36,356 nt of DNA. Source: Bacteroidota bacterium (lineage in GTDB: Bacteria; Bacteroidota; Bacteroidia; Bacteroidales; Paludibacteraceae). The notes below the pieces were generated by a model that did not search any database, was not told where the DNA came from, and saw only the letters and a program-made list of their open reading frames with translations. The translations under genes and the position numbers were made by a program. Where the stretch lies: assembly GCA_017860345.1 (NCBI GenBank), contig JAFNAV010000060.1, forward strand, positions 1-36,356, read 5' to 3'. Below are positions 5,841 to 32,351 of the stretch, piece by piece (positions within the stretch are counted from its first letter, which is position 1; every line of letters starts with the position of its first letter).

Positions 5841-5869
5841 TATAAAAAACATTTTTTTCTCATAAAAAA

Positions 5870-5902: not shown

Positions 5903-5923
5903 AATTTTATATAAGACACTGAT

Positions 5924-6946: not shown

Positions 6947-7048
6947 GGTTCTTTATCTGTTATTTGGTTATAATTAAATCTTTTATTTTTAGTACATCAC
7001 AAAAATTCTATTTTGCCTATAATTCATGGATGTGAATAGTGATTCATG

Positions 7049-7280
7049 TGAATAGAAACGCGGATATAGCGGATTAAACAGATTTTCGCTGTAAACTCAA
7101 AAGTTTTCCTAATACGGATTACATTACAGATTTTAGACTTCACAAGTGAAGTCGGCTGATTTTCAGCTACGAGCACTAATCCGTCATTTACGTAGTAAAT
7201 AAATCAGAATTAAAATCCGTTTTATTACTACAATAAATCAGTGTATATCAGTTAAATCCGCTATATCCGCGTATCTATTC
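7049..7280. repeat. MITE-like element with ~28-bp inverted ends and nested hairpins
   Basis: The left end (from 7050, GAATAGAAACGCGGATATAG and onward through GCGGATT) is the near-exact reverse complement of the right end (ending 7280, ATCCGCTATATCCGCGTATC then TATTC), differing at about three positions over ~34 bases. Inside are further inverted pairs: ACGGATTA (7114-7121) with 7177-7184; GACTTCAC (7136-7143) with 7146-7153; GCTGA (7155-7159) with 7163-7167; ATTTAC (7186-7191) with 7195-7200. There is no ORF. This looks like a small non-autonomous mobile or structured repetitive element. No clear target-site duplication was identified by eye. Confidence 0.6.
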
Positions 7281-7465
7281 TTTTTTTGTCATGTCTTAGT
7301 CTTTTATTATTGAGTAAAAAAAAATTACTTCATTTATATTTAGTTTTTGTAAACTTCAGCATGCTTAGGTTTTGAATCATTTCTGCATATTCCATTTACG
7401 TTCAACAACGACATTGTTTTTCTTGCGGCTAAGTTGTATAAACTCTATTATAATTCAATAGTTTA

Positions 7466-7473
7466 CAAAGATA
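7466..7473 (-). promoter_or_regulatory. Possible distant recA promoter (-7 element)
   Basis: Reads TATCTTTG on the minus strand, matching TAnnTTTG. A CAAA (TTTG) at 7487-7490 is too close (13 bases) to be a good -33 box. If used, the recA leader would be about 510 bases and would include the inverted-repeat element. Confidence 0.35.
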
Positions 7474-7557
7474 AATATTATTTTCTCAAATGAAAAAATC
7501 TGGTATTGAAATTTAAATAGAAATCTATCCGCAACCACACCCTAAAAAAGAACATTA

Positions 7558-9867
7558 CTATTCAAGCACTTCAAGTTTTGCAAATTTTAGCAGCAGCGAT
7601 TTCATCCCTTTATCACCAAAATCAATATCGGCTTTCTCATTACCATTCACCACACTGGTTTCCATCACTTTACCAATACCAAATACGGCATGTTTTACAA
7701 ACGCTCCCACTGGCAAAGCACTGTTTACGGTGGGCACCTTGTCGGCGCCGTTTCCACCCAGTTTAGTCATTCGTTTAGGTGGCTGTGGAGCAAAAGTTTC
7801 GGCAGGTGCAGCAGCGGTTCGGGGCGACTGGTTAAACCGCGAACGTTCAAAACTTATTTCGTCGTCCCAGTTACCAAAACGGGTTTGCCGGGCTTCAAAT
7901 CCCGTTTCCTTAGGTTCATCAAGATACTGAGAATCAATATCTTTTATAAAGCGGCTTGGATTCGAAAAATTTGTTTTTCCGTTACGGAAACGCGATTTGG
8001 AGAAACTGATAAAACACAGTTCCTCGGCCCTGGTGAGAGCCACGTAAAACAGCCTTCGCTCCTCCTCCAGCTCCCTTTCCGAGCCCGTAGTATAAGCCGA
8101 TGGAAATAGCTCTTCTTCCATCCCAACAATGAATACCACTTTGAATTCCAACCCTTTGGCTGCGTGAACGGTCATCATCGTTACTTTTTCACCATCACTA
8201 TCGGTATCAGTATCCTGGTCGGTTTGCAACGACACATCAGACAGAAAATCAGGTAAAAATGCCGATTCCTGATCATTCTGACGGGTTTCGCAAAATTCAT
8301 GTATAGCCTTGAGCAATTCCTGCACGTTTTCCTGTTTGCTCATATTTTCGGGCGAACGATCCAGAAAAGTTTCGCTGATAACGCCCGTAACCTTGACTAC
8401 ACTATTCACCAAATCGTAAGCATTTTGGGTATTAACCTGCTGTGCAAACACGCCTATCATATCCCTGAATTGCGCCAGTTTTGTAGCTGCACCGGCATTT
8501 ACAGGCAGGTTGTAGCCAAGCATATCGGTAAGTACATCCCAGGCGCTTACTTCATGAAGCTGGGCGCATTCCAACAGTTTCGTTACGGTAGTATCGCCAA
8601 TTCCGCGAGCCGGATAATTGATAATCCGTTTGAGCGCTTCCTCGTCATTGCGGTTACAAATAAGCCTGCAATAAGCAATCACGTCCTTAATTTCTTTCCG
8701 TTGATAAAAAGACAGCCCACCATATATGCGGTAAGGGATGGTCTTTTTTCTGAGCGCCTCTTCGAGTACACGCGATTGCGAGTTGGTTCTGTACAATATA
8801 GCAATATTCTGAAAACCATAACTTTCTTTATATTTCAGATCCAGAATATTTTGTGCCACCACGGCACCCTCCTCCAAATCGGTAAATACGCTCAGCAATT
8901 TGATAGGTCTGCCCTCTTCCTTTTCCGAAAACACTGTTTTACGTATCTGTTTGGAGTTTTTATCTATCAGGCTATTCGCAGCATTTACAATGGTTTGCGT
9001 TGAACGGTAGTTTTGTTCCAGCTTAAAAATCTGAGCATTGGTATACGCATTTTTAAACTGTAGTATATTGTCGATATTGGCACCCCGAAACGAGTAAATA
9101 CTCTGAGCATCATCACCTACCACACAAATTCGTTCATGTTGCTCCGAAAGCTTTTTAACGATTAGATATTGTGCAAAATTTGTATCCTGATACTCATCTA
9201 CCAGAATATAGCCGAAAGCATCGCGATATTTTTGCAAAACATCCGGGTGATTTCTGAAAAGGATGTTGGTTTGCATCAACAGGTCATCAAAATCCATGGC
9301 ATCGGCCTGTTTACAGCGGTTGCAATATATTTTGTAAATATCCGACATCATAGGCACCCGCGAAGTCATATCCGCTTTAATCAGGTCAGGAGTTGCCTGA
9401 TAAGCCTCCGGAGTTATCAGGTTGTTTTTAGCATAGGAAATACGCGAGTGAACAAAGCCATGTTTGTATTGCTTATCATCGAGTTTAAGCTCTTTTACAA
9501 TGCTTTTGATCAAACTATTTGAATCGGACGAGTCGTAAATGGTAAAGTTTTTGGAGTATCCTATTCTGTCAGCCTCATTGCGCAATATCCTCGAAAAAAC
9601 AGAGTGAAAAGTTCCCATCCACAAGTAGCGAGCCGTACGTTCGCCCACCATGCCGGCAATACGGGCTTTCATTTCGCGTGCAGCTTTGTTGGTAAAAGTC
9701 AGTGCCAGGATAGACGATGGCGGCAGTCCCATTTTAAGCAGATAAGCTATCTTGTAAGTCAGCACACGGGTTTTTCCCGATCCGGCACCCGCTATAACCA
9801 GCGAGGCTCCATCGATATATTCCACAGCACGACGCTGACTATCATTCAGTTCATTTAAAAAATCCAT
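7558..9867 (-). CDS. pcrA: UvrD/PcrA-type ATP-dependent DNA helicase
   Basis: A 769-residue superfamily 1 3'-5' helicase for nucleotide excision repair, mismatch repair and removal of blocked complexes. Motifs: Walker A GAGSGKTR (27-34), Walker B VDEYQDTN (223-230), GDDAQSIYSFRGAN, motif IV LEQNYRST, motif V TVHAAKGLEFKVVFI, and motif VI RRLFYVALTRAEE. The C-terminal ~50 residues (VGAFVKHAVFGIGKVMET ... DFGDKGMKSLLLKFAKLEVLE end) match the Tudor-like domain by which PcrA/UvrD contacts RNA polymerase. This tail and the length distinguish it from Rep. The gene stands alone, upstream of recA on the same strand but separated by 610 bases. uvrD is an equally acceptable name. Confidence 0.93.
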   Translation of the reverse strand: MDFLNELNDSQRRAVEYIDGASLVIAGAGSGKTRVLTYKIAYLLKMGLPPSSILALTFTNKAAREMKARIAGMVGERTARYLWMGTFHSVFSRILRNEADRIGYSKNFTIYDSSDSNSLIKSIVKELKLDDKQYKHGFVHSRISYAKNNLITPEAYQATPDLIKADMTSRVPMMSDIYKIYCNRCKQADAMDFDDLLMQTNILFRNHPDVLQKYRDAFGYILVDEYQDTNFAQYLIVKKLSEQHERICVVGDDAQSIYSFRGANIDNILQFKNAYTNAQIFKLEQNYRSTQTIVNAANSLIDKNSKQIRKTVFSEKEEGRPIKLLSVFTDLEEGAVVAQNILDLKYKESYGFQNIAILYRTNSQSRVLEEALRKKTIPYRIYGGLSFYQRKEIKDVIAYCRLICNRNDEEALKRIINYPARGIGDTTVTKLLECAQLHEVSAWDVLTDMLGYNLPVNAGAATKLAQFRDMIGVFAQQVNTQNAYDLVNSVVKVTGVISETFLDRSPENMSKQENVQELLKAIHEFCETRQNDQESAFLPDFLSDVSLQTDQDTDTDSDGEKVTMMTVHAAKGLEFKVVFIVGMEEELFPSAYTTGSERELEEERRLFYVALTRAEELCFISFSKSRFRNGKTNFSNPSRFIKDIDSQYLDEPKETGFEARQTRFGNWDDEISFERSRFNQSPRTAAAPAETFAPQPPKRMTKLGGNGADKVPTVNSALPVGAFVKHAVFGIGKVMETSVVNGNEKADIDFGDKGMKSLLLKFAKLEVLE

Positions 9868-15982: not shown

Positions 15983-17122
15983 TTAATACTGACTGTAGAT
16001 TGACCTGATATACGTAAATGCCTGCGAATAAATAGGTTTTGTAAATTCAATAAACAGATCCTGATTAGTAGGAGGCAACTGCGGGTTACGCCCGCAAAGC
16101 GCTTTCTGCTCATTGGTTAACGCTCTTTCATCGCCATTGAAGTTTCCCCACGAGGTACTCCATACATATTCGCCTGTAAAGTTGCGTTGCTGCAATAGCA
16201 CATCGCGCGTGTCGTAAACCCTCACACTGAGTACTCCTCCTGAAAGAATTTCGCGACGATTGGTAGTAAGCTTAGCTGTTACTGTGTTGTACACATCCAC
16301 TTTTTTACCTTCAAAAGTTGCCGTACCTACCTTTACACTGTCGCGTTTTACTTCTACCGTATTTCTTGAATCGCGGATATTTCCGATAGAGTAATCTTCA
16401 AAATTCAGCACAAGGTATTGATGCGGACGCTCATCTGCATTGCGGGGAGCATTAGCTGCGTTATAAAAGCGTATCAATCTGCCGGAAAAATACTTATTGA
16501 TATCAGCAAGCAGATTTTCGCTAAAGAAATCGGCCGAAACCTGATAGTTCGGACTTGTTCGCGGGCGCTCCACAGCCACGCGCAAAGTACCCTGATAACG
16601 TGCCTCTTCTATCAGATTAAGCACATCTTTATATCCATTTGAAAAACTATTGGCTTTCTGGAAATACTGGTACGCAGCTCTGGCCTGATCGATAGTACCC
16701 ACATTAAGCGCTTTAACACCAAGTTCGTAAACCTGACCGGCCGCTTTATCACGAGCATCGCTTAATTCGCTGTGGTATTCCGCCGGAGCAGGAATTAATT
16801 CGATAGCCTTTGGGCAACGGTATATGGTCGAAGCCATTGCATTCAGACGCTCGTATTGATATACTACAGCCGCATAATTATCAGGCTGGTTACTCTGGAG
16901 GGCGATATTTATTTCGCGTAACGCCATTTGTTGTGCCAACGGATAAGTCTGTTTAAGCACGTATTGCGCCTTTTCGTTGCGTGGATTGTCCCGCAATTTT
17001 TCAACAGCCTCCATACAGGCCTTGTAGTAATCGCCTTGTTTGTAAGCCTTGTACCCCGACGAGCAAGCTCCCGTCAGCAAAATAATTAAGCCAAGAAAGA
17101 GTGTTTTGGTAGATGTTTTCAT
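15983..17122 (-). CDS. Predicted lipoprotein of unknown function
   Basis: A 379-residue product with a lipoprotein signal peptide: basic start MKTSTK, hydrophobic core LFLGLIILL and lipobox LTGAC with the lipidated Cys at 20. SS and G follow, compatible with export to the outer membrane. Residues ~25-180 are helical and TPR-like (YKQGDYYKACMEAVEKLR, then ALNVGTIDQARAAYQYFQKA). The C-terminal half is beta-rich with a conserved-looking LVLNFEDYSIGNI segment. No enzyme motif is seen. TPR-bearing lipoproteins of Bacteroidales often scaffold envelope assemblies, but no partner is evident here. It is 92 bases downstream of argS on the same strand and could be read through from it. Confidence 0.75.
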   Translation of the reverse strand: MKTSTKTLFLGLIILLTGACSSGYKAYKQGDYYKACMEAVEKLRDNPRNEKAQYVLKQTYPLAQQMALREINIALQSNQPDNYAAVVYQYERLNAMASTIYRCPKAIELIPAPAEYHSELSDARDKAAGQVYELGVKALNVGTIDQARAAYQYFQKANSFSNGYKDVLNLIEEARYQGTLRVAVERPRTSPNYQVSADFFSENLLADINKYFSGRLIRFYNAANAPRNADERPHQYLVLNFEDYSIGNIRDSRNTVEVKRDSVKVGTATFEGKKVDVYNTVTAKLTTNRREILSGGVLSVRVYDTRDVLLQQRNFTGEYVWSTSWGNFNGDERALTNEQKALCGRNPQLPPTNQDLFIEFTKPIYSQAFTYIRSIYSQY

Positions 17123-17214
17123 AGACCCGGAAATTTTTTTATTATTATTTAGATACTAAAGACAAAATATTTACTGAAACTAATAATTCATTCTCTTGTA
17201 TGCTTTTTCAACCC

Positions 17215-19008
17215 CTACATTCTCTCAGGTACTTCAATTCCCAAAAGTTGCATACCGGATTTTACAACCTTAGCTACCGAGTCGGACAGAACAAGCCGGA
17301 ATTGTTTCAAACCTTCATTTTCTTCTTTCAGGATAGAAAAATCATGATAAAACTGGTTGTATTCCTTTACAAGTTCATATTCGTAGTTAGCAATAAGAGC
17401 AGGACTGAACTCCTCGCCTGCCTGCTTTACCACCGTTGGGAACTCCGATAGTAACTGTATCAGATAACTTTCTTTTTCCGATATTTCAAGTTGCATATCA
17501 ACTATTGTTCCAAAATTCACGCCCTGTTCGGTAGCCTTACGCAACACCGATTTAATACGGGCATGCGTATACTGAATAAATGGACCTGTATTTCCATTAA
17601 AATCAATTGATTCCTTCGGATTGAAGGTCATGTTTTTTCGTGGATCAACCTTCAGAATAAAGTACTTAAGCGCACCAAGCCCCACCATGCGGGCAATTGT
17701 ATTTTTCTCCTCTTCGGTACAATTATCCAATTTACCCAGTTCCTGCGATGTTTCGCGTGCCGTGTTTATCATTTCCTCCATCAGGTCGTCGGCATCTACT
17801 ACAGTTCCTTCGCGGCTTTTCATCTTTCCTTCGGGCAGTTCCACCATACCGTACGAAAAATGCACCAGACTTTTGCCCCATGCAAATCCAAGTTTATCAA
17901 GCAGAATAGACAACACCTGAAAATGGTAATTTTGCTCGTTACCAACCACGTATACCATTTTTTGGATATCAAAATCGTTGTAACGCAGTTTGGCAGTACC
18001 AATATCCTGAGTCATATAAACCGATGTACCATCGGCTCGGAGCAAGAGTTTCTCATCAAGCCCGTCGGCAGTAAGGTCGGCCCACACCGAACTATCATCT
18101 CTGCGATAGAAAACCTGCTCATCCACACCACGTTCCACTTCAGCCTTGCCGGTGAGGTAAGTCTCCGATTCATAATAAATCTTATCAAAACTTACCCCCA
18201 TTTGCTGATAAGTTTCGTCAAATCCGGCATACACCCATCCGTTCATCATTTCCCAGAGTTGGCGTACTTCCTTATCGTTATTCTCCCAGGCTAACAGCAT
18301 TTTTTGAGCATCGAGTATAAGCGGCGCATTCTTTTTGGCCTCTTCTTCGCTCATGCCGGTAGCCATCAGTTCTTTAATCTCAGCTTTATACGCTTTATCA
18401 AAAATCACATAATACTTTCCCACCAGATGGTCGCCTTTCAGGCCGGAGCTCTGAGGCGTTTCGCCATTCCCAAAAAGTTTCCAGGCCAGCATCGATTTAC
18501 AAATATGTATACCGCGGTCGTTCACAATATTCGTTTTCACCACATTCCATCCATTGGCCTTTTGTATTTCCGAAATACTATGTCCCAACAAGTTATTGCG
18601 GATATGCCCCAGGTGAAGCGGTTTATTGGTATTGGGCGAAGAATATTCAATCATCATCACACCCGCAGCCTCATCGGGCAGCACGGTACCATACAAAGCA
18701 TCGCTATGAATGGCATTGAGCGTTTCAATCCAGTGGCTTTTATTTATACTAACATTCAAAAAACCCTTAATTACATTAAAGGCCGATACCACAGGATAGT
18801 GCGCCAAAAGGAACTCTCCAATTTCCTGTCCCACTACTTCGGGCGATTTACGTGCCATCTTTACAAACGGAAAAACAACTATTGTAACATCACCTTCAAA
18901 CTCCTTTTTGGTTTTCTGTATCTGTATTTGCGATATCTCGGTATCGGCATTATAAAGCGTTTTTACCGATTGAGTCACCGCCGACTGAATTATTTCTTCT
19001 AAATTCAT
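17215..19008 (-). CDS. argS: Arginyl-tRNA synthetase
   Basis: A 597-residue class I synthetase that charges tRNA-Arg. It has the N-terminal Add1 domain (1-~110), a HIGH motif HLGHIRN (132-138) preceded by EYSSPNTNKPL, and a KMSKS-position GKMKSREG. The C-terminal anticodon-binding helical domain includes the DALR-like FIQYTHARIKSVLRKA and ends PERM. Length is normal for the family. The start ATG at 19008 follows a good promoter by about 28 bases. Confidence 0.96.
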   Translation of the reverse strand: MNLEEIIQSAVTQSVKTLYNADTEISQIQIQKTKKEFEGDVTIVVFPFVKMARKSPEVVGQEIGEFLLAHYPVVSAFNVIKGFLNVSINKSHWIETLNAIHSDALYGTVLPDEAAGVMMIEYSSPNTNKPLHLGHIRNNLLGHSISEIQKANGWNVVKTNIVNDRGIHICKSMLAWKLFGNGETPQSSGLKGDHLVGKYYVIFDKAYKAEIKELMATGMSEEEAKKNAPLILDAQKMLLAWENNDKEVRQLWEMMNGWVYAGFDETYQQMGVSFDKIYYESETYLTGKAEVERGVDEQVFYRRDDSSVWADLTADGLDEKLLLRADGTSVYMTQDIGTAKLRYNDFDIQKMVYVVGNEQNYHFQVLSILLDKLGFAWGKSLVHFSYGMVELPEGKMKSREGTVVDADDLMEEMINTARETSQELGKLDNCTEEEKNTIARMVGLGALKYFILKVDPRKNMTFNPKESIDFNGNTGPFIQYTHARIKSVLRKATEQGVNFGTIVDMQLEISEKESYLIQLLSEFPTVVKQAGEEFSPALIANYEYELVKEYNQFYHDFSILKEENEGLKQFRLVLSDSVAKVVKSGMQLLGIEVPERM

Positions 19009-19042
19009 TGTTATGCTGCTAATTTATCTTTTATTCGGGATG

Positions 19043-19050
19043 CAAAGATA
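19043..19050 (-). promoter_or_regulatory. -7 promoter element of argS
   Basis: Minus strand TATCTTTG (TAnnTTTG). No matching TTTG at the -33 distance. Predicted start near 19036. Confidence 0.55.
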
Positions 19051-19141
19051 CAAAAATTAGTCATAACTATAAGGCCTTTAGATTTTTGATATTATTTTTA
19101 TTGTAGCCATAATGTTTTCTCAAATCATTATTTGCTAAAAA

Positions 19142-19179
19142 AAAGTGCCTGTAAATCTGCGACGATTTACAGGCACTTT
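19142..19179 (-). terminator. Terminator of the outer-membrane barrel gene
   Basis: AAAGTGCCTGTAAATC (19142-19157) pairs perfectly with 19164-19179 (16 bp, 6-base loop). On the minus strand it is followed by a run of T residues (complement of CTAAAAAAA), placing it 38 bases past the stop codon at 19217. Confidence 0.88.
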
Positions 19180-19216
19180 CCGGTGTGGAATCAATTATTT
19201 AATCTGAGAAATTCGT

Positions 19217-19867
19217 TTAGAATAATTTCCAGCCAAGTGAAATCACAAAGTTGGAATTGAGGTCGGGCTTGGTTTGCCAGGTGGCCTGATAAATATCGTT
19301 AATAAGATTAAATCTTACATCCAAAGCAAACATAAGCACATCGATACCTGCACCTGCTTCCAGACCGATATTGGCATTTTTAAACTCTCCTTTCAGGGCT
19401 TCCCTGTCTACTTCGCCGGCAGTTAAATTACCATACGATATTTGCGAACCGGCATTAAGCCTGATTTTAGGACCAGCAAAAGCCCGCAGGTTCATAACTT
19501 TCAGATCCAAAAGCTTATAACCCAACAGCAAAGGAATATCCACTGTGCTAAAGGTAACATACTTGTTGACATTTAAGTTTTCAGCTCCATCCAATATGGA
19601 GAACTGATAATCTTTTTTCTGCATATTGTACAACAGCTCGGGCTGGATATACAAATTCTTAATGAATACACGGCTAAAGATACCGGCGTGAAACCCGTTG
19701 GCAAGCTCAGAGTTTACGTTTTCTAAATTATAACCACCATTACTTACCGATGATATATTATCAAACGTTAAGGACGAATTATATCCGGCCTTGATACCAA
19801 AATTAAACTGAGCATTAGCAAAAGAGACAGACAGCAGAAGGACTGCCAGAAAAATTAGTTTTTTCAT
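19217..19867 (-). CDS. Small outer-membrane beta-barrel protein (PorT-like family)
   Basis: A 216-residue product with a signal peptide (MKKLIFLAVLLLSVSFANAQ) and a predicted 8-strand barrel: NFGIKAGYNSS, HAGIFSRVFIKNLYIQPELLYN, VDIPLLLGYKLL, AFAGPKIRLNAGS, NIGLEAGAGIDVLMFALDVRFN, and a C-terminal strand ending in GWKLF with terminal Phe. This pattern matches the outer-membrane protein beta-barrel domain common in Bacteroidetes. Function is unknown; it may be structural or a small porin. ATG 19867 is chosen because the signal peptide begins there; an upstream TTG would add MFIV. Confidence 0.82.
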   Translation of the reverse strand: MKKLIFLAVLLLSVSFANAQFNFGIKAGYNSSLTFDNISSVSNGGYNLENVNSELANGFHAGIFSRVFIKNLYIQPELLYNMQKKDYQFSILDGAENLNVNKYVTFSTVDIPLLLGYKLLDLKVMNLRAFAGPKIRLNAGSQISYGNLTAGEVDREALKGEFKNANIGLEAGAGIDVLMFALDVRFNLINDIYQATWQTKPDLNSNFVISLGWKLF

Positions 19868-19919
19868 AACAATAAACAAAAATTTAAATTATTATACAGA
19901 TATTAAGTAAATATGGCGT

Positions 19920-19927
19920 CAAATATA
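19920..19927 (-). promoter_or_regulatory. -7 promoter element of the barrel gene
   Basis: Minus strand TATATTTG fits TAnnTTTG; predicted start near 19913, a ~46-base leader. A recognisable -33 box is lacking. Confidence 0.45.
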
Positions 19928-20068
19928 CTAATTATTTATATTGAACCAGCCAATTCTATTGAATTATTTCGATTTATACATTCTTTTGTAAAACAAATAA
20001 CGCGCCAAATAATTTGAAATGGCAACCGTAAGGGCAATAGCCATCGGGAAAATTATAAATTATTTCTT

Positions 20069-20076
20069 TACCTTTG
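20069..20076 (+). promoter_or_regulatory. -7 promoter element of the pectinesterase gene
   Basis: TACCTTTG fits TAnnTTTG; predicted start near 20083. No -33 box is seen. The leader to ATG 20187 is about 104 bases and contains the hairpin at 20120-20150. Confidence 0.5.
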
Positions 20077-20119
20077 CTATATTATTTATCCTATTCAGCA
20101 GATATTAATTTATAATGAA

Positions 20120-20150
20120 ACTCGCATCCCGAAAACTCACTGATGCGGGT
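20120..20150 (+). promoter_or_regulatory. Leader hairpin before the pectinesterase start
   Basis: ACTCGCATC (20120-20128) pairs with GATGCGGGT (20142-20150), nine pairs with one wobble, around a 13-base loop. It lies inside the predicted 5' leader, over a short upstream ATG at 20115. Function unknown. Confidence 0.35.
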
Positions 20151-20186
20151 TCCATGCGACAACTAATTAAAAATAAAAAAGAACGA

Positions 20187-21152
20187 ATGAAAAAACTATT
20201 GCTCCCCTTGTGGTTGGTTTTACTTAGTGTTACAGCTAATGCCCGGCAATACGACTTTATTGTAGCAGCCGATGGAACAGGAAATTTCACTACCATACAA
20301 GCTGCTATCGATGCCAGTAAAGCTTTCCCGGATGCACCGGTTAGCATTTATATCAAAAACGGCACCTATCATGAAAAGGTAAAAGTGCCGGCATGCAATA
20401 CTCACTTAAGGCTGATAGGCGAAAGCGCCGAAAAAACCATTCTTACATACGGCGACCATTTCAACAGCATCAGCCGGGGGCGCAACAGCACCTTTTATAC
20501 CTATACACTGATGGTAGAAGCCGACGATTTCAGAGCCGAAAACCTGACCATTGAAAACTCAGCAGGTCCTGTGGGTCAGGCAGTAGCACTCCATGTAGAA
20601 GGCGACCGTTGCGCTTTCGTTAACTGCCGGCTGCTGGGCAATCAGGACACGCTTTATCTGTCGGGCGAGACAAGCCGCAATTACTTTGCTGCCTGCTATA
20701 TTGAAGGAACTACCGATTTTATTTTCGGTTCGGCTACGGCTTTTTTCGAAAACTGCACCTTACACAGCAAAACCAGTTCATATATTACCGCAGCCAGCAC
20801 GCCTCAGGGCAGGAAATATGGCTTTGTATTCAGCCATTGTACGCTTACGTCAGCTCCGGGTGTCGACAAAGCGCTACTGGGCAGGCCATGGCGCGACTAT
20901 GCCCGTGTTGTGTTTATACAGTGCCATATCGGGAAACATATAGCACCGGCCGGATGGGCCAACTGGGACAAAACATCGCGCGACAAGACAGCCTATTTCG
21001 CTGAATATCTGTGTACAGGCGAAGGCGCCTCTGTTGGCGGTAGGGTGGCATGGAGTCATCAGCTCAGCGCACGCCAGGCCAAAGCCTACAGCAAAGAAAA
21101 AGTACTTGCTCCGATTATATCGCCAGCCCACCCTACCGACTGGATTAAATAA
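20187..21152 (+). CDS. Pectinesterase (pectin methylesterase, CE8 family)
   Basis: A 321-residue exported enzyme that removes methyl esters from homogalacturonan. Signal peptide MKKLLLPLWLVLLSVTANA, then the family start YDFIVAADGTGNFTTIQAAI and a right-handed beta-helix. Active-site residues are all present: Q153 and D154 in NQDTLY, D177 in GTTDFIFG, and R233 in LGRPWRDY. Start: ATG 20187 fits the signal peptide; ATG 20115, in frame, would put 24 polar residues before it. It has its own promoter and terminator and no adjacent SusC/SusD or pectate lyase gene, so it is a lone CAZyme here. It probably acts in the periplasm or outside the cell. Confidence 0.92.
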   Translation: MKKLLLPLWLVLLSVTANARQYDFIVAADGTGNFTTIQAAIDASKAFPDAPVSIYIKNGTYHEKVKVPACNTHLRLIGESAEKTILTYGDHFNSISRGRNSTFYTYTLMVEADDFRAENLTIENSAGPVGQAVALHVEGDRCAFVNCRLLGNQDTLYLSGETSRNYFAACYIEGTTDFIFGSATAFFENCTLHSKTSSYITAASTPQGRKYGFVFSHCTLTSAPGVDKALLGRPWRDYARVVFIQCHIGKHIAPAGWANWDKTSRDKTAYFAEYLCTGEGASVGGRVAWSHQLSARQAKAYSKEKVLAPIISPAHPTDWIK

Positions 21153-21165
21153 ATCGATATTATAA

Positions 21166-21221
21166 AAGGCTGTACAAGAGAGACAATGTCATTCAGAACA
21201 TCACACTCTCTTTACAGCCTT
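21166..21221 (+). terminator. Terminator after the pectinesterase gene
   Basis: AAGGCTGTA (21166-21174) plus AAGAGAG (21176-21182) pair with CTCTCTT (21206-21212) and TACAGCCTT (21213-21221), 16 pairs with one bulged C and a 23-base loop, followed by ATTTTT. The pectinesterase stop is 14 bases upstream. Confidence 0.75.
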
Positions 21222-21267
21222 ATTTTTCGGGAAAATCCACTTTAAAACTTTCCTTTTTCCATTATTT

Positions 21268-21690
21268 CTAAAAGTTTATATATGCTTTTGCTTTCAAGTT
21301 ATTGGCCATCGTCCAGAAATGAGCCTTACCATGCGCAATACGAAACAGAAACAAATCCGGGCTTTCGGCTGTAAGGCCTAAAGTTTTCAGAAATGGCCTA
21401 TCTTCTACAACCTTATTTTTAAAAACCTGATCGTCAAGAATTTCAGCTTCACCCTGAACCCTGAGCATAGTCCCTGTTATACCTTCGTGATGATAAAAAC
21501 AAAGCTCTGTTTTTGGATTAACAGCCAACTGGCCCGGAAGTTCCTTGATGGAACCCGATTGAAAATAAAAGCCTGTTTTATCTGCAAACCACATACCCAG
21601 AATTCTCACATAAGGCTGATTATCAACAGCTGTCGCTACGTGACAAACAGGATTCTCGTTAGCAAAACGAATACAATCATCGATGTTCAT
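21268..21690 (-). CDS. Pyridoxamine 5'-phosphate oxidase-like flavin split-barrel protein
   Basis: The 140-residue protein matches the small PNPOx-like FMN-binding split-barrel family: HVATAVDNQPYVRILGMWF (17-35), FYFQSGSIKELPGQL (41-55), and TELCFYHHEG, with an end KAHFWTMANNLKAKAYINF typical of the family. Members bind FMN, F420 or heme and reduce varied substrates, so the substrate cannot be named. Its start overlaps the end of the upstream small gene by 14 bases, so translation is probably coupled. Confidence 0.82.
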   Translation of the reverse strand: MNIDDCIRFANENPVCHVATAVDNQPYVRILGMWFADKTGFYFQSGSIKELPGQLAVNPKTELCFYHHEGITGTMLRVQGEAEILDDQVFKNKVVEDRPFLKTLGLTAESPDLFLFRIAHGKAHFWTMANNLKAKAYINF

Positions 21691-21889
21691 ATTTTTTTTG
21701 TTTTTTAATTGGTTTGTAATTACACGTATTATTATCTGAGCTGTAAGTTATTTTGTATTCGTTAAGCAAACTGGCTATAATTCGCCGGGTGGCATCTTCT
21801 TCAAGTCCCAACATTTCGCCCAACATTATTTCGTCGACAGCACCTTTTGACATTTGAAGTGCCTGTAAATAAATATTGATATTATTCAT
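21677..21889 (-). CDS. Small HTH-like protein overlapping the flavin-protein gene
   Basis: A 70-residue product (start ATG 21889, MNNINIYLQALQMSKGAV). The sequence MLGEMLGLEEDATRRIIASLLNEYKITY looks like the helix-turn-helix half of a winged-helix fold, followed by a basic tail ending KKQKKYEHR. It may bind DNA or the neighbouring flavoprotein. The 14-base overlap with the next gene indicates a two-gene operon and supports it being real. I do not recognise a named family. A longer frame begins at 21922 but the extra residues look non-coding. Confidence 0.6.
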   Translation of the reverse strand: MNNINIYLQALQMSKGAVDEIMLGEMLGLEEDATRRIIASLLNEYKITYSSDNNTCNYKPIKKQKKYEHR

Positions 21890-22459
21890 AAGTTTATCTA
21901 TTAAAAAAATAGCAATTGACATAGGATACCAATTTGCATTTTTATCTTATAAAGAAATATTATAATAAACGATATAACCGACTTATCAGACAAGCCGGCG
22001 TATCCTCCGAAGTGCTATTACTTATGTAATGAAGTGGAGGAGTATGGAAGACAATATATTAATAGACCTTTAGAATAATGCAAAAATAATATTTTTTCGC
22101 ACTTTAACCTTAATCACGGTAAAATATTTTTTAATTTTCGATATTCATTCACTTGATTGTCAAATAAACTTCAATATGATGGATTAAGAGCTATATTTTT
22201 CACTTCTTCCTGAATGACAGTCCGGAACCTGGGATTGACGGGGTTGGGGCGGAGAAAAAAGAAGTTTCATTACTGACTTTTCGGCTTTTTAATGCTTTCA
22301 TTTATTTTCATCCTCTGTTTTTTTATACCTTTGCTAACGCAAATCCGGCAACTGCGGGCATCAGCCCCGAATGTTGGAAAATTGATTGTTTCGTTGAACC
22401 AAACAACCACCGTATACGTTTAAAAAAAGTGCTTATAAACGTCTCTGCATAAATTACTG
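21890..22459. other. Divergent intergenic region before the ABC transporter operon
   Basis: No gene seen. It contains a broken stem (TCCTCC 22003-22008 with 22036-22041; ATTAC 22017-22021 with 22026-22030), a possible minus-strand -7 element TATTTTTG (22088-22081) for the small HTH-like gene, and a plus-strand -7 element at 22326-22333. A G-rich patch lies at 22229-22253. Confidence 0.45.
22326..22333 (+). promoter_or_regulatory. -7 promoter element of the ABC transporter operon
   Basis: TACCTTTG fits TAnnTTTG, with predicted start near 22340 and a ~120-base leader. The leader can form a short GGGC/GCCC hairpin near 22356-22368. No clear -33 box. Confidence 0.5.
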
Positions 22460-26011: not shown

Positions 26012-26037
26012 GCGCTATCAAAGTTGCTTGATAGCGC
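26012..26037. repeat. Hairpin over the aminotransferase stop codon, between convergent genes
   Basis: GCGCTATCAA (26012-26021) pairs perfectly with 26028-26037 around AGTTGC. It covers the aminotransferase stop (26018-26020) and lies 17 bases past the ABC operon stop. No T-run follows on either strand, so it may be a weak shared terminator or 3'-end stabiliser. Confidence 0.45.
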
Positions 26038-27202
26038 CGGCCAGTTTACGTATCCCCACTTCTATTTCGGCCGGAGTAGAACACGAAAAATTCAACCTAC
26101 AGGTATTCACATCTGTTTTACCCACATAAAACGGATTGCCGGGAACAAAAGCCACTTTTTCGCGTATTGCCAGGTTAAAAAGTTCCATCGCATTTTTACC
26201 CTCAGGTAAAGTAAGCCACAGAAACATACCGCCTTCCGGACGGGTATAATGAACCTCTTTCGGGAAATAGCGCTCTATAGCATCCATCATGGCAGTGGCC
26301 TGTTCGCCATAAGCCTTACTGATAACTGCTATATGTTCATCGATATCATATTCGGCCAGATACAGATGCAGCAAGCGCTGCGTAAAATAATCAGTATGCA
26401 GGTCGGCAGCCTGCTTGGCTATCACCAGGCGCTCCATCACCTCATGGGGAGCAACTATCCAACCCATGCGAAAAGACGGCACTACTGTTTTGGAAAACGT
26501 ACCCAGCAGTATCGTTTGCTCAGGCAGATAATGCGCCAGCGAAGGCAGGTGCTCACCACTGAAGCGTATATCGCCGTAAGGGTCATCCTCAACCACAAAC
26601 ATATTTTTCCCGCGGCAAATATCCGCTACAGCCTGCCGGGTTTCGGCACTGTAGCTAATGCCCGATGGATTCTGAAAATTAGGAATCAGGTAAGCCAACC
26701 GTGGGCAAAACGCATCCATCTTTTGTTTCATCAGTCGTATATCAATACCATCAGCAGTAAGCGGCACCGTTACAAATTCCGGTTTAAAAATTGAAAATGC
26801 CTGAATAGCTCCCAAATAGCCCGGCTCTTCTATCAACACCGCATCACCCTCGTTTACAAAAATCTTCCCAAGCAAATCAAGTCCCTGTTGCGAGCCATTG
26901 GTAATCAGGATATTTTCGGCACTCACAGTCAGACCCTTGCGGGCATATCTGGCCGCTATCTGTTCGCGCAGAGGCAGGTAACCTTCGGTATTGGCATATT
27001 GCAAAATATTGCGGTCGGAGCCCGACATCAGCAAATCCGCGCACTCATGCAGTTCCTCCAGCGGAAACAAATTTTTGTTAGGAAGGCCTCCGGCAAATGA
27101 AATAACATCGGGCGACACCGCTACTTTAAGTATTTCGCGGATAAACGACCGGGGAACACCAGCCATACGGCGGGCAAACTGTGGTTCGATAGTTTCGTTC
27201 AT
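26018..27202 (-). CDS. PLP-dependent class I/II aminotransferase (LysN/2-aminoadipate aminotransferase-like)
   Basis: A 394-residue fold-type I aminotransferase. N178 and P179 lie in FQNPSG, D207 in EDDPYGD, and the Schiff-base Lys is K238 in LGTFSKTVVPSFRMGW; the C-terminal Arg is in CRLNFS. The closest remembered relatives are LysN/alpha-aminoadipate and MocR-like aminotransferases, a group of broad specificity that includes branched-chain and aromatic 2-oxo acids. Its leader carries a predicted attenuator with an Ile/Leu/Val-rich leader peptide, which suggests, but does not prove, a role in branched-chain amino-acid metabolism. The gene has no HTH domain. It is convergent with the ABC operon. 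Confidence 0.9.
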   Translation of the reverse strand: MNETIEPQFARRMAGVPRSFIREILKVAVSPDVISFAGGLPNKNLFPLEELHECADLLMSGSDRNILQYANTEGYLPLREQIAARYARKGLTVSAENILITNGSQQGLDLLGKIFVNEGDAVLIEEPGYLGAIQAFSIFKPEFVTVPLTADGIDIRLMKQKMDAFCPRLAYLIPNFQNPSGISYSAETRQAVADICRGKNMFVVEDDPYGDIRFSGEHLPSLAHYLPEQTILLGTFSKTVVPSFRMGWIVAPHEVMERLVIAKQAADLHTDYFTQRLLHLYLAEYDIDEHIAVISKAYGEQATAMMDAIERYFPKEVHYTRPEGGMFLWLTLPEGKNAMELFNLAIREKVAFVPGNPFYVGKTDVNTCRLNFSCSTPAEIEVGIRKLAGAIKQL

Positions 27203-27238: not shown

Positions 27239-27264
27239 CCCCTTCCGGCATTCACCGAAAGGGG
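27239..27264 (-). terminator. Attenuator-type terminator in the aminotransferase leader
   Basis: On the minus strand CCCCTTTCGG pairs with CCGGAAGGGG (ten pairs, one U-G wobble, 6-base loop) and is followed by T x 7 (27238-27232) and more T-rich sequence. It lies 30 bases before the aminotransferase ATG, so it would block that gene unless prevented. It could also end read-through from the helicase gene upstream. Confidence 0.75.
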
Positions 27265-27530: not shown

Positions 27531-30500
27531 TCAATTTCTTTCAGTTTTTTCAAAAAACAATTCGGGCAAAACAATCTTGATTTCCTGATTAGTCTCTTCT
27601 TTCAACCAATACACTATAAAATTCACTTTGGCACTTTTCAATTCATAGTTGTTTAATTTAAGTGTTTCAATTTCTTCGATAAATTGCTTTGAAAATCTTA
27701 AAACCGATTGTCCATTTGAATTCAGACATTCATCGCCTTTCAAAGTCAACTCATCTCCACTCATTAATTGAGAAACCAGTGATTGCCTATTCAAAAAATA
27801 ATCGAGCCAGACATCTTTGTAAGTCAAATGCCTTACTATCTCGTTGGGCTGTTCATAAGTATTATTATCCACCAGTCTAAGAAGATTTTCGCTTGAGATA
27901 TGGTCAAGCACATCAGAATTAACATGAATATTGAGATTCTGTTTTGCTCTGGTCATGGCAACATACAATTTTCGTTTTTCTTCGTCGGTTTCTGAATTAA
28001 AATTATCAAGCATCAGGAAAACATGATCAAACTCTTTCCCTTTTGCTTTATGAATTGTTGACACAAAAACAACATCTCCATTTTCATTAAAGAAATCCTC
28101 TAATTTGGATTCACGAATAAAAACATGAAGGTCGGATTTGTATTTCCTTTTAATATTCGTTGCTTCAAAATCGCGAATAAGGTTGTTACATATTTCTATT
28201 TTATTACTGTGCTGAAACTTATTTTTCAATTCGCGTTTTGCCCTATCCCATAAATCGTCATTGATTGTAAAAACATCATCGGCAGTATTGACAAGGCTTA
28301 AAAAATATCTTATTTCCAAAACATGATATAAATTAAATCCATCGTTTGTTTGAATAAGTTTAGCCGGCACACTATTTTTGGTCAGCAATCCTGTTATTTG
28401 CAGCGCATCTTCATTTGTTTTGGCAAGCACACATACAGTTCCTTTAAGTCCGGTTGCAAGTATATCATTTACAAGAGGAACTATCAAACTACCGCTCTTG
28501 TAACGGACTATTTTAATTAAACCATCATCTGTTTGTTTTGCAATTATCGGAGTGTATTTTAATCTATGCTTTATTTGTTTTACAAACTGGTTAGTAAAAT
28601 CTACCAGATTGTTTTTGCTTCTGTAATTTTCTATCAGTTCATGTTTAACGGCTTGGTTGTTCAGTATAAACTGTTCAAGATATTTAGAACTTGCTCCTCT
28701 GAATTCAAAAATATTCTGGTCATCATCACCAACAGCTATCACCCTCATTTCTTCATTTTGCTCCATTAATGTATTGATCAGATTAAATTCATCTTCGTCC
28801 ATATCCTGAGCTTCGTCAATCACCAAAACTGTTTTAGTAATACGATTAATTTCAACTTCGTGATTTTTAATCTTTTCAATCGTTTTCTTTATGATAGCAT
28901 CAGACTTTTCCAGATTTCCAACTTTCCCAAGCAAGTCGAAACAATAAGCATGAAATGTCTTTATTTCAATGAAATAAGCTGCATTCCCAATAAGGCTAAC
29001 CAAGCGTTTTTTAAATTCTGTAACAGCAGCCCTTGAGAATGTAAGCATCAGTAATTGTTCATGCTTAACATCTTCCATCAAAAGCAGCGAAGCTAACTTA
29101 TGCACTAAAACCCTTGTTTTTCCACTTCCAGGCCCTGCTGCTACAACAATATTTTTGGACTCATTATCGTTAATAATTCTCAACTGCGTAGGCGATAGTT
29201 CCCCAAAAAGCTGCTTGAATTTGGCTGGTGTCATTTTCAGTTTAAGGTCATCAGCTTTGCTTCCGGGGAAATACTTATTAAGAAACGAACTGTAATTTAA
29301 CTGAAAATAGTCTTCTACAAACTGTAAAGCATCTTTATAGTCGCTTAACATTTTCTTAGCATATTCGCCAACAATATGTATTTGCTGTACCTTGCTTTCG
29401 TAAAACTGCTCAAGCTTCTGATAATCTTCCTTTCTATACCTTTTTTTATTATCCTGTTCTAACCTTTCAATGGTTAAACGATTATATAACACTAAAAATC
29501 CACCCTCAATTTTTATAGCCTCAATTCTCGACAGATAAAACAATGAATCTTCAACATCATCAATGCCAACACTCAACTTAAACAGATACTGACTGTTTTC
29601 GTAAGCAGTTTTTAATTCGTGAACCGAAAATTCAACTAAAACATCTTCTTTTCCTGTATCATCGTCCGAAGCACTCAAATTACTTTTATCGTAAAGATAT
29701 TGAACAATGAATTGAGCTAATTCATGCCTTTTTTCTAATTTTTCTTTAAGTAACTCTTTTGAATACAAACTCTGCACTACAATGTGATTTTTGGTATATT
29801 CTAAGTTCTGTCTTCTAATCCAATTTTTAATAGACCAAAAATTGATAATCGTTTTTATCTTACTCACATTCACATCATGACAGCCGCTTAACTCGGCCTT
29901 CTCGTTTAATTCTTTAAGATGAAATGTTTTTTCGCTTTCTTCAAACATTTGCAGTAAATACCGCTCTATCTTACTAAATGTTTCAACAATATTGAGCGAA
30001 CGATTCTTATTTTCACCCTTTTTGATAAATGCCGATAAATCTTTGGCATCGGCCAGAATGTTTTCGTCCCGCAGCAAGTTAACAATATCAACAACCTCTT
30101 CTTTTACAATTCCCAAATGATCACTTATATAATCAATTCTGGATTCTGCCGATTCTTCGTTAGATTGTTTTCTGCTTTTACTGGATAAAAGTTTTTTAAT
30201 TATCCTGACTCCTTTTTCTTTTTGTTTTTCCTGAAATTTCTCTGAAGCATTTATTTTTTCGATAGCCTCCTGAGCATTCTTGCAAAGTATACTATTGGCA
30301 AAAACTTTTGGCATATTTTGTCCACGCTTCAGGTAGCCGGCGTCTTCCAGAGCAGCAATAGCAGTTGTTACTCTTGTTTCGATATCAGCAACATTGTCAT
30401 CCCAACCCGCTTTACGTGCAATTTCTAACGCAGAATTTGATACGGACAATCTAAATCGGGTAATTTCTTTTATGGCTTTCCATATTTGTTGAATTTCTTT

Positions 30501-32351
30501 TATAGATAATTTGGTTTGGTTCAACAGAATAAAATGTTTACTCAGGTCTTCTTCGTTAAACAACACAAAGCAATCGGCAACAATATTTTCATCTCTGCCA
30601 GCTCTACCCGCTTCCTGAATATAGTTCTCAAGAGAGTCGGATATTTCATAATGAACCACCATACCCACATCTTTTTTATCCACACCCATACCAAAAGCGG
30701 AAGTGGCCACCATAATTTGCACTTCACCAGCTATAAACGCATTTTGATTAGTTGTTTTTGCCTGCGCATCCATTTTTCCATGATAAGGTTTGGCCGAAAA
30801 CCCATCATTGCAAAGCCTTTCGGCCAACAAATTTGCTTTTCTGGTTCTGGAAACGTATACAATGGTAGGGCAATACCTGCTTTCAATCAAATCTCTGAGT
30901 TTTTGGTATTTTTCTTCCTCATCACGCTCTTCATAAACTTTGTATTGAAGATTGGTTCTTGATGCTTTTGATGTGAAAACCTCCAGGTCAACAGACAGTT
31001 TTTCCTTAAAATAATTCAGAATATCTTCGATTACTTTTGGCTTGGCAGTAGCAGTAAAACAGGAAACGGGAATACCCTCGGGTAAATTTTTCTTTTCCTG
31101 AATACTTTTAATAAAATCGCCAATATAGAGGTAATCTACCCTGAAATCCTGTCCCCAAGCCGAAAAACAGTGAGCCTCATCAATCACAAAACGGGTAATC
31201 GTTCTGCCTGATATTACTCGTTCAATTGTTTTAGACCGTAAAGACTCCGGAGATATGTAGAGTAATGAAGCCGAACCATCTTCAACCCGTTCAAATGATT
31301 TGGCCCGGTCTATCGGGTCTAATAATCCGTTGATGGTAACAGCATCAGTTATTCCATTTTTCTCGAGGTTATCTACCTGATCTTTCATCAGCGATTGTAA
31401 AGGGGATATAATCACTGTCAGGCCATTAGAATTAACACCACTCATCAAAGCCGGCACCTGAAAAGTGATAGATTTTCCGCCTCCTGTAGGAAAAATCGCT
31501 AATAAAGATTTATTATCAACAGCTGCCTTAACTGCTCTTTCCTGTAAAGATTCACCACCATAAGTACGGAATGTATTAAATCCAAAAAAACGGCGTAATC
31601 CCTGATGTATATCCAACGCTTTGTTGCAATACATACAACCGGTTGTGCAGGGTTTGTTTCGTAACAAAAATATAATCCGCTCAACCTCCGGAAAATTAAT
31701 TAACACCCATCGCGGTATAATGGAGCGTACGTTTTTAAAATGACATAAAGAATTTATGAGTGACAAACAATAAGCAAGTTCTATGGGGTTATTTGCAATC
31801 AAGGTGGAAAGTAATGCGTTTTCGCAAATTTCATTTTCAAATCTTCTGCGGATTATACTTTCAACCGAAACCTGATTATAAGGAACAAATGAAATATATC
31901 TGAAAAAAGCCCGGAACTCACGTTTATCTGAAAGAAGAGCATAGAAGATATTTTGCAAATCACGATCAATCTGATTAAATTCATCCAGCTCGTCATAAAA
32001 CAAATCCTTAGACTTAATGGCATCATTCAACGGATTATTCAACTCATCCGTTTGTAATTTATCATCTTTTAAAAGTGCGTGATACGGTTTGGTCGGAAAC
32101 AAAAGTGGAGATAGGTACAACGTATCCACAACGGCTTTAACCCCAATATCAAAAAGCGCCCTTCCAATGTATTTTATATCATGATTCAGGATATTATGTC
32201 CGCATACAAATTCTACTCCGCTCAAAAACTGAGCAAGTTCTGCAACTGAACTCCCGTGGAATGTGTTTCCGTCAACCCTTATACCGCCAATATCTAATAT
32301 CTTTTGGCTCTTAGGCTCTATTTCGGTATCAACGAAGGCAATAGCGCTCAT
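27531..32351 (-). CDS. Exonuclease-RecQ-UvrD triple fusion helicase/nuclease
   Basis: A 1606-residue single frame with three enzyme modules. Residues 1-~140 are a DnaQ-like DEDD exonuclease: FVDTE (D8, E10), GHNILNHD (D58), NDAIKSKD (D110), with Asn where DEDDh enzymes have His. Cys 235, 239 and 242 form CX3CX2C. Residues ~265-605 are a RecQ core: PTGGGKS (288-294), DEAH (391-394), FTATAKP, TSAFGMGVDK, QEAGRAGRD (579-587). The usual RecQ zinc cysteines after the core are absent. Helical and winged-helix-like sequence fills ~610-1050. Residues ~1054-1475 are a UvrD-like SF1 helicase: GPGSGKTR (1073-1080), DEAQD (1179-1183), GDDDQNIFEFRGA, ENYRSK, STIHKAKGKEFDHVF, LYVAMTRAK. It has its own promoter and is clearly more AT-rich than recA or pcrA. 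Likely a DNA-processing factor for repair or phage defence; neither is shown. Confidence 0.92.
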   Translation of the reverse strand: MSAIAFVDTEIEPKSQKILDIGGIRVDGNTFHGSSVAELAQFLSGVEFVCGHNILNHDIKYIGRALFDIGVKAVVDTLYLSPLLFPTKPYHALLKDDKLQTDELNNPLNDAIKSKDLFYDELDEFNQIDRDLQNIFYALLSDKREFRAFFRYISFVPYNQVSVESIIRRRFENEICENALLSTLIANNPIELAYCLSLINSLCHFKNVRSIIPRWVLINFPEVERIIFLLRNKPCTTGCMYCNKALDIHQGLRRFFGFNTFRTYGGESLQERAVKAAVDNKSLLAIFPTGGGKSITFQVPALMSGVNSNGLTVIISPLQSLMKDQVDNLEKNGITDAVTINGLLDPIDRAKSFERVEDGSASLLYISPESLRSKTIERVISGRTITRFVIDEAHCFSAWGQDFRVDYLYIGDFIKSIQEKKNLPEGIPVSCFTATAKPKVIEDILNYFKEKLSVDLEVFTSKASRTNLQYKVYEERDEEEKYQKLRDLIESRYCPTIVYVSRTRKANLLAERLCNDGFSAKPYHGKMDAQAKTTNQNAFIAGEVQIMVATSAFGMGVDKKDVGMVVHYEISDSLENYIQEAGRAGRDENIVADCFVLFNEEDLSKHFILLNQTKLSIKEIQQIWKAIKEITRFRLSVSNSALEIARKAGWDDNVADIETRVTTAIAALEDAGYLKRGQNMPKVFANSILCKNAQEAIEKINASEKFQEKQKEKGVRIIKKLLSSKSRKQSNEESAESRIDYISDHLGIVKEEVVDIVNLLRDENILADAKDLSAFIKKGENKNRSLNIVETFSKIERYLLQMFEESEKTFHLKELNEKAELSGCHDVNVSKIKTIINFWSIKNWIRRQNLEYTKNHIVVQSLYSKELLKEKLEKRHELAQFIVQYLYDKSNLSASDDDTGKEDVLVEFSVHELKTAYENSQYLFKLSVGIDDVEDSLFYLSRIEAIKIEGGFLVLYNRLTIERLEQDNKKRYRKEDYQKLEQFYESKVQQIHIVGEYAKKMLSDYKDALQFVEDYFQLNYSSFLNKYFPGSKADDLKLKMTPAKFKQLFGELSPTQLRIINDNESKNIVVAAGPGSGKTRVLVHKLASLLLMEDVKHEQLLMLTFSRAAVTEFKKRLVSLIGNAAYFIEIKTFHAYCFDLLGKVGNLEKSDAIIKKTIEKIKNHEVEINRITKTVLVIDEAQDMDEDEFNLINTLMEQNEEMRVIAVGDDDQNIFEFRGASSKYLEQFILNNQAVKHELIENYRSKNNLVDFTNQFVKQIKHRLKYTPIIAKQTDDGLIKIVRYKSGSLIVPLVNDILATGLKGTVCVLAKTNEDALQITGLLTKNSVPAKLIQTNDGFNLYHVLEIRYFLSLVNTADDVFTINDDLWDRAKRELKNKFQHSNKIEICNNLIRDFEATNIKRKYKSDLHVFIRESKLEDFFNENGDVVFVSTIHKAKGKEFDHVFLMLDNFNSETDEEKRKLYVAMTRAKQNLNIHVNSDVLDHISSENLLRLVDNNTYEQPNEIVRHLTYKDVWLDYFLNRQSLVSQLMSGDELTLKGDECLNSNGQSVLRFSKQFIEEIETLKLNNYELKSAKVNFIVYWLKEETNQEIKIVLPELFFEKTERN

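Follow-up and report, generated by a model that had tools for sequence, protein, structure and literature searches.

Helicases that work in partnership with nucleases recur in bacterial immunity, as in Gabija and Hachiman. The closest described single-protein helicase-nuclease defence that we found is Hna, described as a broadly distributed anti-phage protein composed of two superfamily 2 (SF2) helicase lobes and a PD-(D/E)XK nuclease, with 3'-5' exonuclease activity on single-stranded DNA (PMC13381803). A link between exonucleases and RecQ helicases has also been seen before, since Majorek et al. 2014 list RNase H-like exonuclease domains comprising RecQ helicases as their cluster F.14 (PMC3985635). 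Here we analyse a 36,356-nucleotide stretch of DNA from a Bacteroidota bacterium of the family Paludibacteraceae (GenBank assembly GCA_017860345.1, contig JAFNAV010000060.1; hereafter the window), in which one open reading frame (ORF) encodes an exonuclease-RecQ-UvrD protein of 1606 residues.

On balance, sequence comparison leads us to favour the view that this protein is a helicase-nuclease that acts against phages or plasmids, is encoded by a single gene and has spread horizontally. We regard it as probably a one-gene defence (or repair) machine because it has spread as a single gene and because anti-phage genes adjoin it in some relatives; defence is favoured over the alternatives by its distribution, its lateral spread and its neighbours. 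The first-pass annotation of this DNA offered no described function for the architecture, and we likewise found no description or characterisation of the triple arrangement in open-access papers, a scope outside which most subscription-journal papers lie.

Domain architecture

The ORF opens with ATG and continues for 1606 codons without an internal stop. Its full-length relatives were aligned in 88 rows representing 86 distinct sequences (L090 duplicates L070 and L093 duplicates L068). The other nine of the 97 homologue loci are either cut by contig ends (L051, L061, L072, L077 and L081) or have interrupted frames (L013, L041, L073 and L084). The four interruptions, among 80 genome-contig copies, lie in three cases within approximately the first 220 codons and may be real or assembly errors. 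A chance ORF is ruled out by motifs invariant in the 86 distinct sequences, and a misassembly fusing two genes by the 85 distinct full-length relatives besides the window copy.

Both helicase cores are recognized by Pfam, with E values from 6e-22 to 5e-30. Residues 269-443 match DEAD and 480-586 Helicase_C, while UvrD-helicase (PF00580, 4.5e-30, best stretch 1053-1149) and UvrD_C (PF13361, 1.8e-23, residues 1363-1478) account for the second motor. The NCBIfam model recQ_fam is passed over residues 252-615 with 276 bits against a cut-off of 220. Across the 86 distinct sequences the RecQ motifs P288-T-G-x-G-K293 and DEAH (391-394) are invariant, as are, among UvrD motifs I-VI, GPGSGKT (1073-1079), DE-x-QD (1179-1183) and GDDDQ (1208-1212), together with N1242/R1244, H1434/K1437/G1438/E1440 and R1460/Y1463/V1464/R1468. 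The RecQ-type aromatic-rich loop (W399-G400..D402-F403-R404) shows no variation among 41 aligned sequences. Neither RecQ_Zn_bind nor HRDC matches the 1606-residue protein at E <= 1e-3; the zinc-binding/RQC and HRDC domains are missing from some RecQ members.

AlphaFold2 models were built from 41-row alignments for residues 1-640 and 625-1606. The N-terminal model has a mean predicted local distance difference test score (pLDDT) of 80.9, and its best solved structures are the RecQ-family cores 4tmu and 1oyw, with WRN helicase chains also among the matches listed. The C-terminal model, for which UvrD, PcrA and Rep are the best solved structures, is only moderately reliable because its mean pLDDT is 73.3 and its predicted template modelling score 0.48. 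Pfam, recQ_fam and the invariance of the motifs therefore bear out the first-pass claim of one 1606-residue frame with intact SF2 RecQ and SF1 (superfamily 1) UvrD motifs, and the domain search and structure prediction proposed there, carried out with Pfam, a profile search and AlphaFold2, recovered the three-part architecture.

The N-terminal domain has the four catalytic acids that define the ExoI/ExoII/ExoIII motifs (D8, E10, D58 and D110), each invariant in all 86 distinct full-length sequences. DEDDh enzymes carry a His five residues before the last Asp, and DEDDy enzymes a Tyr four residues before it. In this protein the His position is N105, which aligns with the His of the HxxxxD motif of 9l8b in the family profile alignment and is Asn in 85 of the 86 sequences and Ser in one; the domain thus lacks the residue that marks the DEDDh/DnaQ subclass. 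At residue 106, Asn, Asp and Ser occur but Tyr does not. Comparison of the copies indicates that the acids are kept and the predicted general base is altered across a family spanning Bacteroidota, Campylobacterota, Cyanobacteriota and proteobacteria. Nearby, a PYHxLxK loop is near-invariant (H91 in 85 of 86 sequences, K95 in every one); the fold of the domain is modelled mostly with confidence, and loop 91-101 falls below a pLDDT of 50.

No Pfam model matches residues 1-245 of the window protein, and on ten N-terminal pieces no DEDD family rose above its cut-off (best DNA_pol_B_exo1 on L064, 19 bits against 23). A profile built from 37 family members and searched against PDB sequences returned DEDD-type exonucleases as its first eight matches: the PolC exonuclease 2p1j (E 6e-4), four chains of exodeoxyribonuclease III including 9mrc (1e-3 to 3e-3), the DEDDh enzyme 8fyc (8e-3), DnaQ 8h18 (0.025) and PolC 9qpc (0.3). 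Glutathione transferases (0.5) and then T7 and delta DNA polymerases (about 1) come just after these exonucleases, so the signal is modest though consistent. Foldseek with the N-terminal model gave no separate nuclease among the 50 matches listed, since all 50 are RecQ-family helicases. The DnaQ-like, DEDD-type nuclease of the first-pass annotation therefore survives as a DEDD domain, on its acids and profile matches, but not as a DEDDh enzyme, given the replacement of His by Asn.

The exonuclease domain is under purifying selection, with a ratio of nonsynonymous to synonymous change (dN/dS) of 0.07-0.23 in the eight of ten close pairs that have enough synonymous change. In the same pairs the ratio is 0.01-0.12 for RecQ and 0.06-0.17 for UvrD, so that the exonuclease is higher than RecQ. 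Elsewhere in the protein, the linker has four cysteines that may bind a zinc ion, C176 and C235-x3-C239-x2-C242; none of them varies among 41 aligned sequences, and in the larger set each is found in 84-85 of the 86. Judged by eye in the low-confidence model, the middle region perhaps consists of several winged-helix-like modules.

Table 1. Features of the exonuclease-RecQ-UvrD gene, with their positions in the window.
Feature	Position	Strand	Basis or remark
Exonuclease-RecQ-UvrD gene, 1606 aa	27531..32351	(-)	single ORF, stop codon included
DEDD-type (RNase H-fold) exonuclease domain, residues 1-130	31962..32351	(-)	conserved acids, profile matches, AlphaFold2 model
Helical linker with probable zinc site, residues 131-245	31617..31961	(-)	conservation of Cys
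SF2 RecQ helicase core, residues 246-630	30462..31616	(-)	motifs intact
Middle region, residues 631-1045	29217..30461	(-)	no Pfam match, no RecQ_Zn_bind match
SF1A UvrD/PcrA-type helicase, residues 1046-1490	27882..29216	(-)	motifs intact
C-terminal domain, residues 1491-1606, mixed beta/alpha	27534..27881	(-)	least conserved part
Candidate Bacteroidota-type promoter, TTTG-N20-TAGATTTG	32447-32416	(-)	65-96 bases upstream of ATG
Intrinsic-terminator-like hairpin, 11 pairs then T run	27239..27264	(-)	267 bases past stop codon

Distribution and transfer between hosts

The gene is patchily distributed. At E <= 1e-150 it is carried by 15 of 395 genomes sampled over the phylum (own genome included), or about one genome in 26. 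Within the genus it is present in five of 36 genomes, the window's own among them and some in pieces at contig ends, and in three of 24 other genomes of the same order. Identity to the window copy ignores the relatedness of the hosts. In three genomes outside the window's class (G034, G291 and G157) the gene is 77, 73 and 71% identical, compared with 46, 44 and 43% for PcrA and 68, 67 and 67% for RecA, while in a genome of the same order (G351) the gene, at 51%, lies below both PcrA (56%) and RecA (83%). Across the 14 carrier genomes outside the genus, gene identity exceeds that of PcrA in 12 and that of RecA in the three named above. It correlates significantly with neither PcrA (Spearman -0.22, p 0.44) nor RecA (0.39, p 0.17), two proteins whose own identities are correlated (0.55, p 0.04). 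On a tree of 72 copies, host class has to change 23 times, against a minimum of 7, and the 17-row set that holds the window copy, starred (96), includes Bacteroidia, Chitinophagia, Cytophagia and Flavobacteriia.

Plasmids carry the gene as well. Matches at E <= 1e-100 occur in 23 plasmid records, six of which cover at least 80% of the query (Phocaeicola, Bacteroides, Aliarcobacter and three cyanobacteria). The seven plasmid copies that we examined (Bacteroides, Aliarcobacter, Rhizobium, Cereibacter, Nostoc, Thiothrix and Microvirga) add alpha- and gammaproteobacteria to the range. In each, the protein is one large coding sequence named only 'RecQ family ATP-dependent DNA helicase' and has no constant partner; in Microvirga the annotated start lies inside an open frame of 1706 codons. 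Each of these copies belongs to the 88-row alignment and has its UvrD motifs preserved. On the Thiothrix plasmid pTfr153 (L103, locus 16658-22169), a stand-alone 3'-5' exonuclease, a WYL protein and a Cas6 gene lie a few kb away.

At the level of DNA, blastn similarity between the window and three same-genus loci (L110, L111 and L112) ends at the ORF ends or at a contig end; the flanks of L110 extend 8.0 and 6.8 kb beyond the gene, and in L111 and L112 the contig stops on one side. No clean empty site was found, the genomes with an ortholog of the left neighbour (G457) or of the right neighbour (G410) matching the window over that single gene only. We conclude from these comparisons that the gene is one transferred laterally as a single unit. 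The patchy distribution, the identities that ignore host relatedness, the plasmid copies and the single-gene boundaries of similarity together argue for an acquired origin, as the first-pass annotation had proposed. Its description of the gene as AT-rich is correct with a caveat: the GC content is 35.3%, compared with 38.8-50.3% in 16 of the 17 other window genes, one short gene is lower still (34.2%), and GC content at third codon positions, 31.8%, is the lowest of the 18.

Neighbouring genes and competing explanations

We took advantage of the PADLOC models (E <= 1e-10) to analyse the neighbours of the gene at genome-contig loci. Scanning covered 134 of the 140 immediate neighbours (four of the six left out are pieces of interrupted genes, and two, at L060 and L069, were scanned separately), and 134 of 141 random proteins from 20 places in seven single-contig Bacteroidota genomes, two of which carry the gene elsewhere, served as the control. 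The immediate neighbours matched 163 PADLOC families, 130 second neighbours matched 69 and the random proteins matched 23. Because one restriction enzyme can match many PADLOC families, we also set the ten longest neighbours against the ten longest controls, a comparison chosen post hoc: a PADLOC match was present in seven of the former and one of the latter (Fisher p 0.02). The seven comprise Type I restriction enzymes (8e-303 and 1.5e-39), a Type IV enzyme (1.2e-224), the candidate system PDC-S37 (1.8e-140) and three weaker AAA or helicase similarities; the control match is to the candidate system PDC-S73 (5.9e-175). The association with defence genes appears real but partial. The gene bears the marks of a defence gene in being patchy, laterally spread and enriched near defence genes, with the qualification that the enrichment measure is crude and that the window locus does not show it.

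Helicases of the RecQ and UvrD families normally move 3'->5', and DEDD domains degrade DNA from its 3' end. From these parts we infer an activity, polarity, target and outcome for the exonuclease-RecQ-UvrD protein. Its target would be invading or over-replicating DNA, such as that of phages and plasmids, whose replication exposes branched or single-stranded structures (a fork, a gap or a 3' end) that the middle region and the two motors could engage. Both motors, 3'->5' by family, would unwind the engaged DNA, and the N-terminal DEDD domain would trim the freed 3' ends. This would either destroy the replicating foreign DNA or stall its replication, perhaps sacrificing the host cell. The same activity on host DNA would look like repair. 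A bolder proposal, which we consider unlikely, is that the family constitutes an undescribed class of immune enzyme: a single gene found across phyla, in which two motors from different superfamilies but with the same expected polarity, on one chain, drive a DEDD exonuclease with Asn for His throughout the family, whose catalysis is rescued or gated by the PYHxLxK loop, perhaps ordering when DNA is bound. The family as such would also offer a natural DEDD site without His or Tyr for probing the role of the general base.

Several observations weigh against a role in defence. The exonuclease domain is without the usual His or Tyr, and because the His is absent its activity cannot be assumed. Of the two close pairs beyond the eight described above, one has an exonuclease dN/dS of 1.1 on a dS of only 0.01 and the other no change there. 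One scan of viral contigs, reaching close relatives only, found no relative, and coverage of the query stays below 80% in all phage records; 20 of the 25 phage matches are listed, all on the helicase part only. On the 72-copy tree, class labels are less mixed than when shuffled (mean 31.4; as low in none of 200), and there are large Flavobacterium and Chryseobacterium clades, from which we take vertical inheritance within genera to be present as well. Bins may in some cases be assigned to the wrong class: L075, although its label is Flavobacteriaceae, has flanking genes in common with two Pedobacter copies, and the taxon labels of the Clostridium and Fibrobacter rows may also be mistaken. The PADLOC comparison counts families, of which one restriction enzyme matches many, and its control is 20 places in seven genomes. 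By Pfam, the 134 neighbours belong most often to oxidoreductase, peptidase and GTPase families, and many relatives stand beside housekeeping genes. At the window itself neither neighbour, an aminotransferase and a GH95 glycosidase, has a PADLOC match, and no defence gene was found beside the gene in a scan of these two and one ABC transporter (weak mad3/mad8 matches). The association with defence expected in the first pass, and the survey of homologues' neighbourhoods that it proposed, were thus upheld in part: relatives' neighbours have more PADLOC matches than random proteins, but the commonest neighbour families, and the window's own neighbours, are metabolic.

The alternative that survives best, possible though in our view rather improbable, is a mobile accessory enzyme of repair or recombination, a WRN-like exonuclease-RecQ protein with a second motor that restarts stalled forks or resects ends, either of the host's chromosome or of its carrier plasmid. 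Both motors come from repair families, the domain order is that of human WRN, whose chains are among the structural matches listed, and the Aliarcobacter plasmid copy adjoins parAB and replication genes. However, the host already has two further RecQ-like proteins and PcrA, 31 of the 36 same-genus genomes (some incomplete) are without the gene, and no repair gene recurs, as judged by eye, among flank families common to at least three loci.

The gene might instead serve the mobile element that carries it, whether plasmid or integrative, in replication, integration or competition with rival elements. Copies on plasmids of several phyla, near partition genes at the plasmid loci L098 and L099, point in this direction. 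We think it distinctly unlikely given the flanks: no family is common to more than ten of the 97 loci, and a ParA-like one, recognized by eye, is common to four, two of them plasmids (integrases and relaxases were not searched by name). A housekeeping role in general is ruled out by the 15 of 395 phylum genomes, the five of 36 genus genomes and the single-gene boundaries of DNA similarity, and the plasmid copies are a further departure from the purely core-genome positions that the first-pass annotation had named as the contrary outcome. In particular, a housekeeping substitute for RecBCD/AddAB, suggested by functional analogy and by the failure of a PcrA query to find an AddA-like protein in the window's genome (86% complete), is highly implausible and largely refuted by the patchy distribution. 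Also against it are the lack of conserved context, a PDDEXK_1 protein in a 1094-aa frame of the same genome that is possibly AddB-like, and UvrD-family frames of AddA size (1048-1263 aa) that the PcrA query matches in 11 of the 14 other carriers.

The exonuclease-RecQ-UvrD gene stands alone, as was first claimed, both in the window and for most relatives. A fixed operon partner is ruled out by flank clusters common to at most ten of 97 loci, many with short flanks: only 49 of the 80 genome-contig loci have 3 kb on both sides. The shared families come mostly from related hosts, and the largest looks by eye like a short-chain dehydrogenase. Only 18 full-length loci have an ORF on the same strand at most 60 bases away, upstream or downstream (65 have an upstream and 64 a downstream neighbour). 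In two flavobacterial copies that are close relatives of each other, a gene of about 235 aa on the same strand begins no more than 45 bases downstream (L026:12857-13561 and L032:5004-5708). Upstream of the Flavobacterium luteum copy lies a giant helicase-nuclease gene (L060:2576-7420, plus strand) whose 1615-aa product has an AAA_11/AAA_12 helicase, an MTES_1575 restriction-like nuclease and a GreA/GreB-like C-terminus, and the neighbour of another copy (L069:4260-7646, minus strand; 1129 aa) is a different nuclease-helicase fusion, of RNase_H_2 with an SF1 AAA_11/AAA_12 helicase.

In the window, the promoter of its own that was first claimed for the gene is plausible given the upstream match to a pattern that we take to be the Bacteroidota promoter consensus, yet that pattern has four matches in the window against 1.0 expected, another of them inside the gene itself, and a sigma-70-type scan of the window gave chance level. 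No convincing terminal repeats surround the gene, the longest common word being nine bases. The aminotransferase flanks it on one side (26018-27202, minus strand) and the glycosidase on the other. The best NCBIfam matches of the aminotransferase are MocR-like regulators (PdxR and YczR); since it has 394 aa and aligns to their aminotransferase part only, it probably lacks a DNA-binding domain. The contig also carries core genes, recA, nusA, infB and argS among them. An ordinary RecQ with RecQ_Zn_bind (2693-4618) stands with RecA and PcrA within approximately 7 kb (2693-9867), about 18 kb from the 1606-residue protein; PcrA was confirmed by its best PDB match, 1pjr (1e-158).

Comparison with known helicase-nuclease systems

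The first-pass annotation likened the protein to a RecBCD-like end-processing machine, which holds as analogy only, both motors being expected to have the same polarity, unlike the opposed motors of RecBCD. Because both helicase families are normally 3'->5', the design is closer to the exonuclease-RecQ order of WRN with a second motor added than to RecBCD. The exonuclease of WRN is of the DEDDy type, and WRN has no UvrD motor; the window protein shares the order of N-terminal DEDD exonuclease and RecQ helicase but has Asn where the His would be, and a UvrD half besides. This shared order may reflect convergence. If our reading is correct, the family would give a bacterial counterpart, in layout, to WRN.

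Within the RecQ family (RecQ, RqlH/PsyrT and DpdF), the core at residues 246-630 passes the recQ_fam cut-off. The window protein is set apart by a nuclease before this core, a second helicase after it and the lack of a RecQ_Zn_bind or HRDC match. The best PADLOC model for the protein is DpdF (PDLC02864, 325 bits) and the third is PsyrT (268 bits), both on the helicase part only, and the NCBIfam cut-offs for DpdF and for the recQ equivalog are not reached. Similarly, Gabija is approached by the helicase half alone: GajB models match that of UvrD type (up to 149 bits), with GajB structures ranking 30 and UvrD, PcrA and Rep structures fitting better. The window neighbours are not GajA-like, and no partner recurs in the flanks, where GajA was not searched by name.

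In Majorek et al. 2014, the section that lists the nuclease-RecQ link leaves UvrD, the change of His to Asn, mobility and function unmentioned in its account of F.14 (PMC3985635). From Hna (PMC13381803), the window protein is separated by its N-terminal DEDD domain, its RecQ core and its SF1 UvrD motor, and Pfam found no PD-(D/E)XK nuclease in it. If the exonuclease-RecQ-UvrD protein does act in immunity, its family, carried also by plasmids of several phyla, would add to these helicase-nuclease pairings an exonuclease and two motors on one chain.

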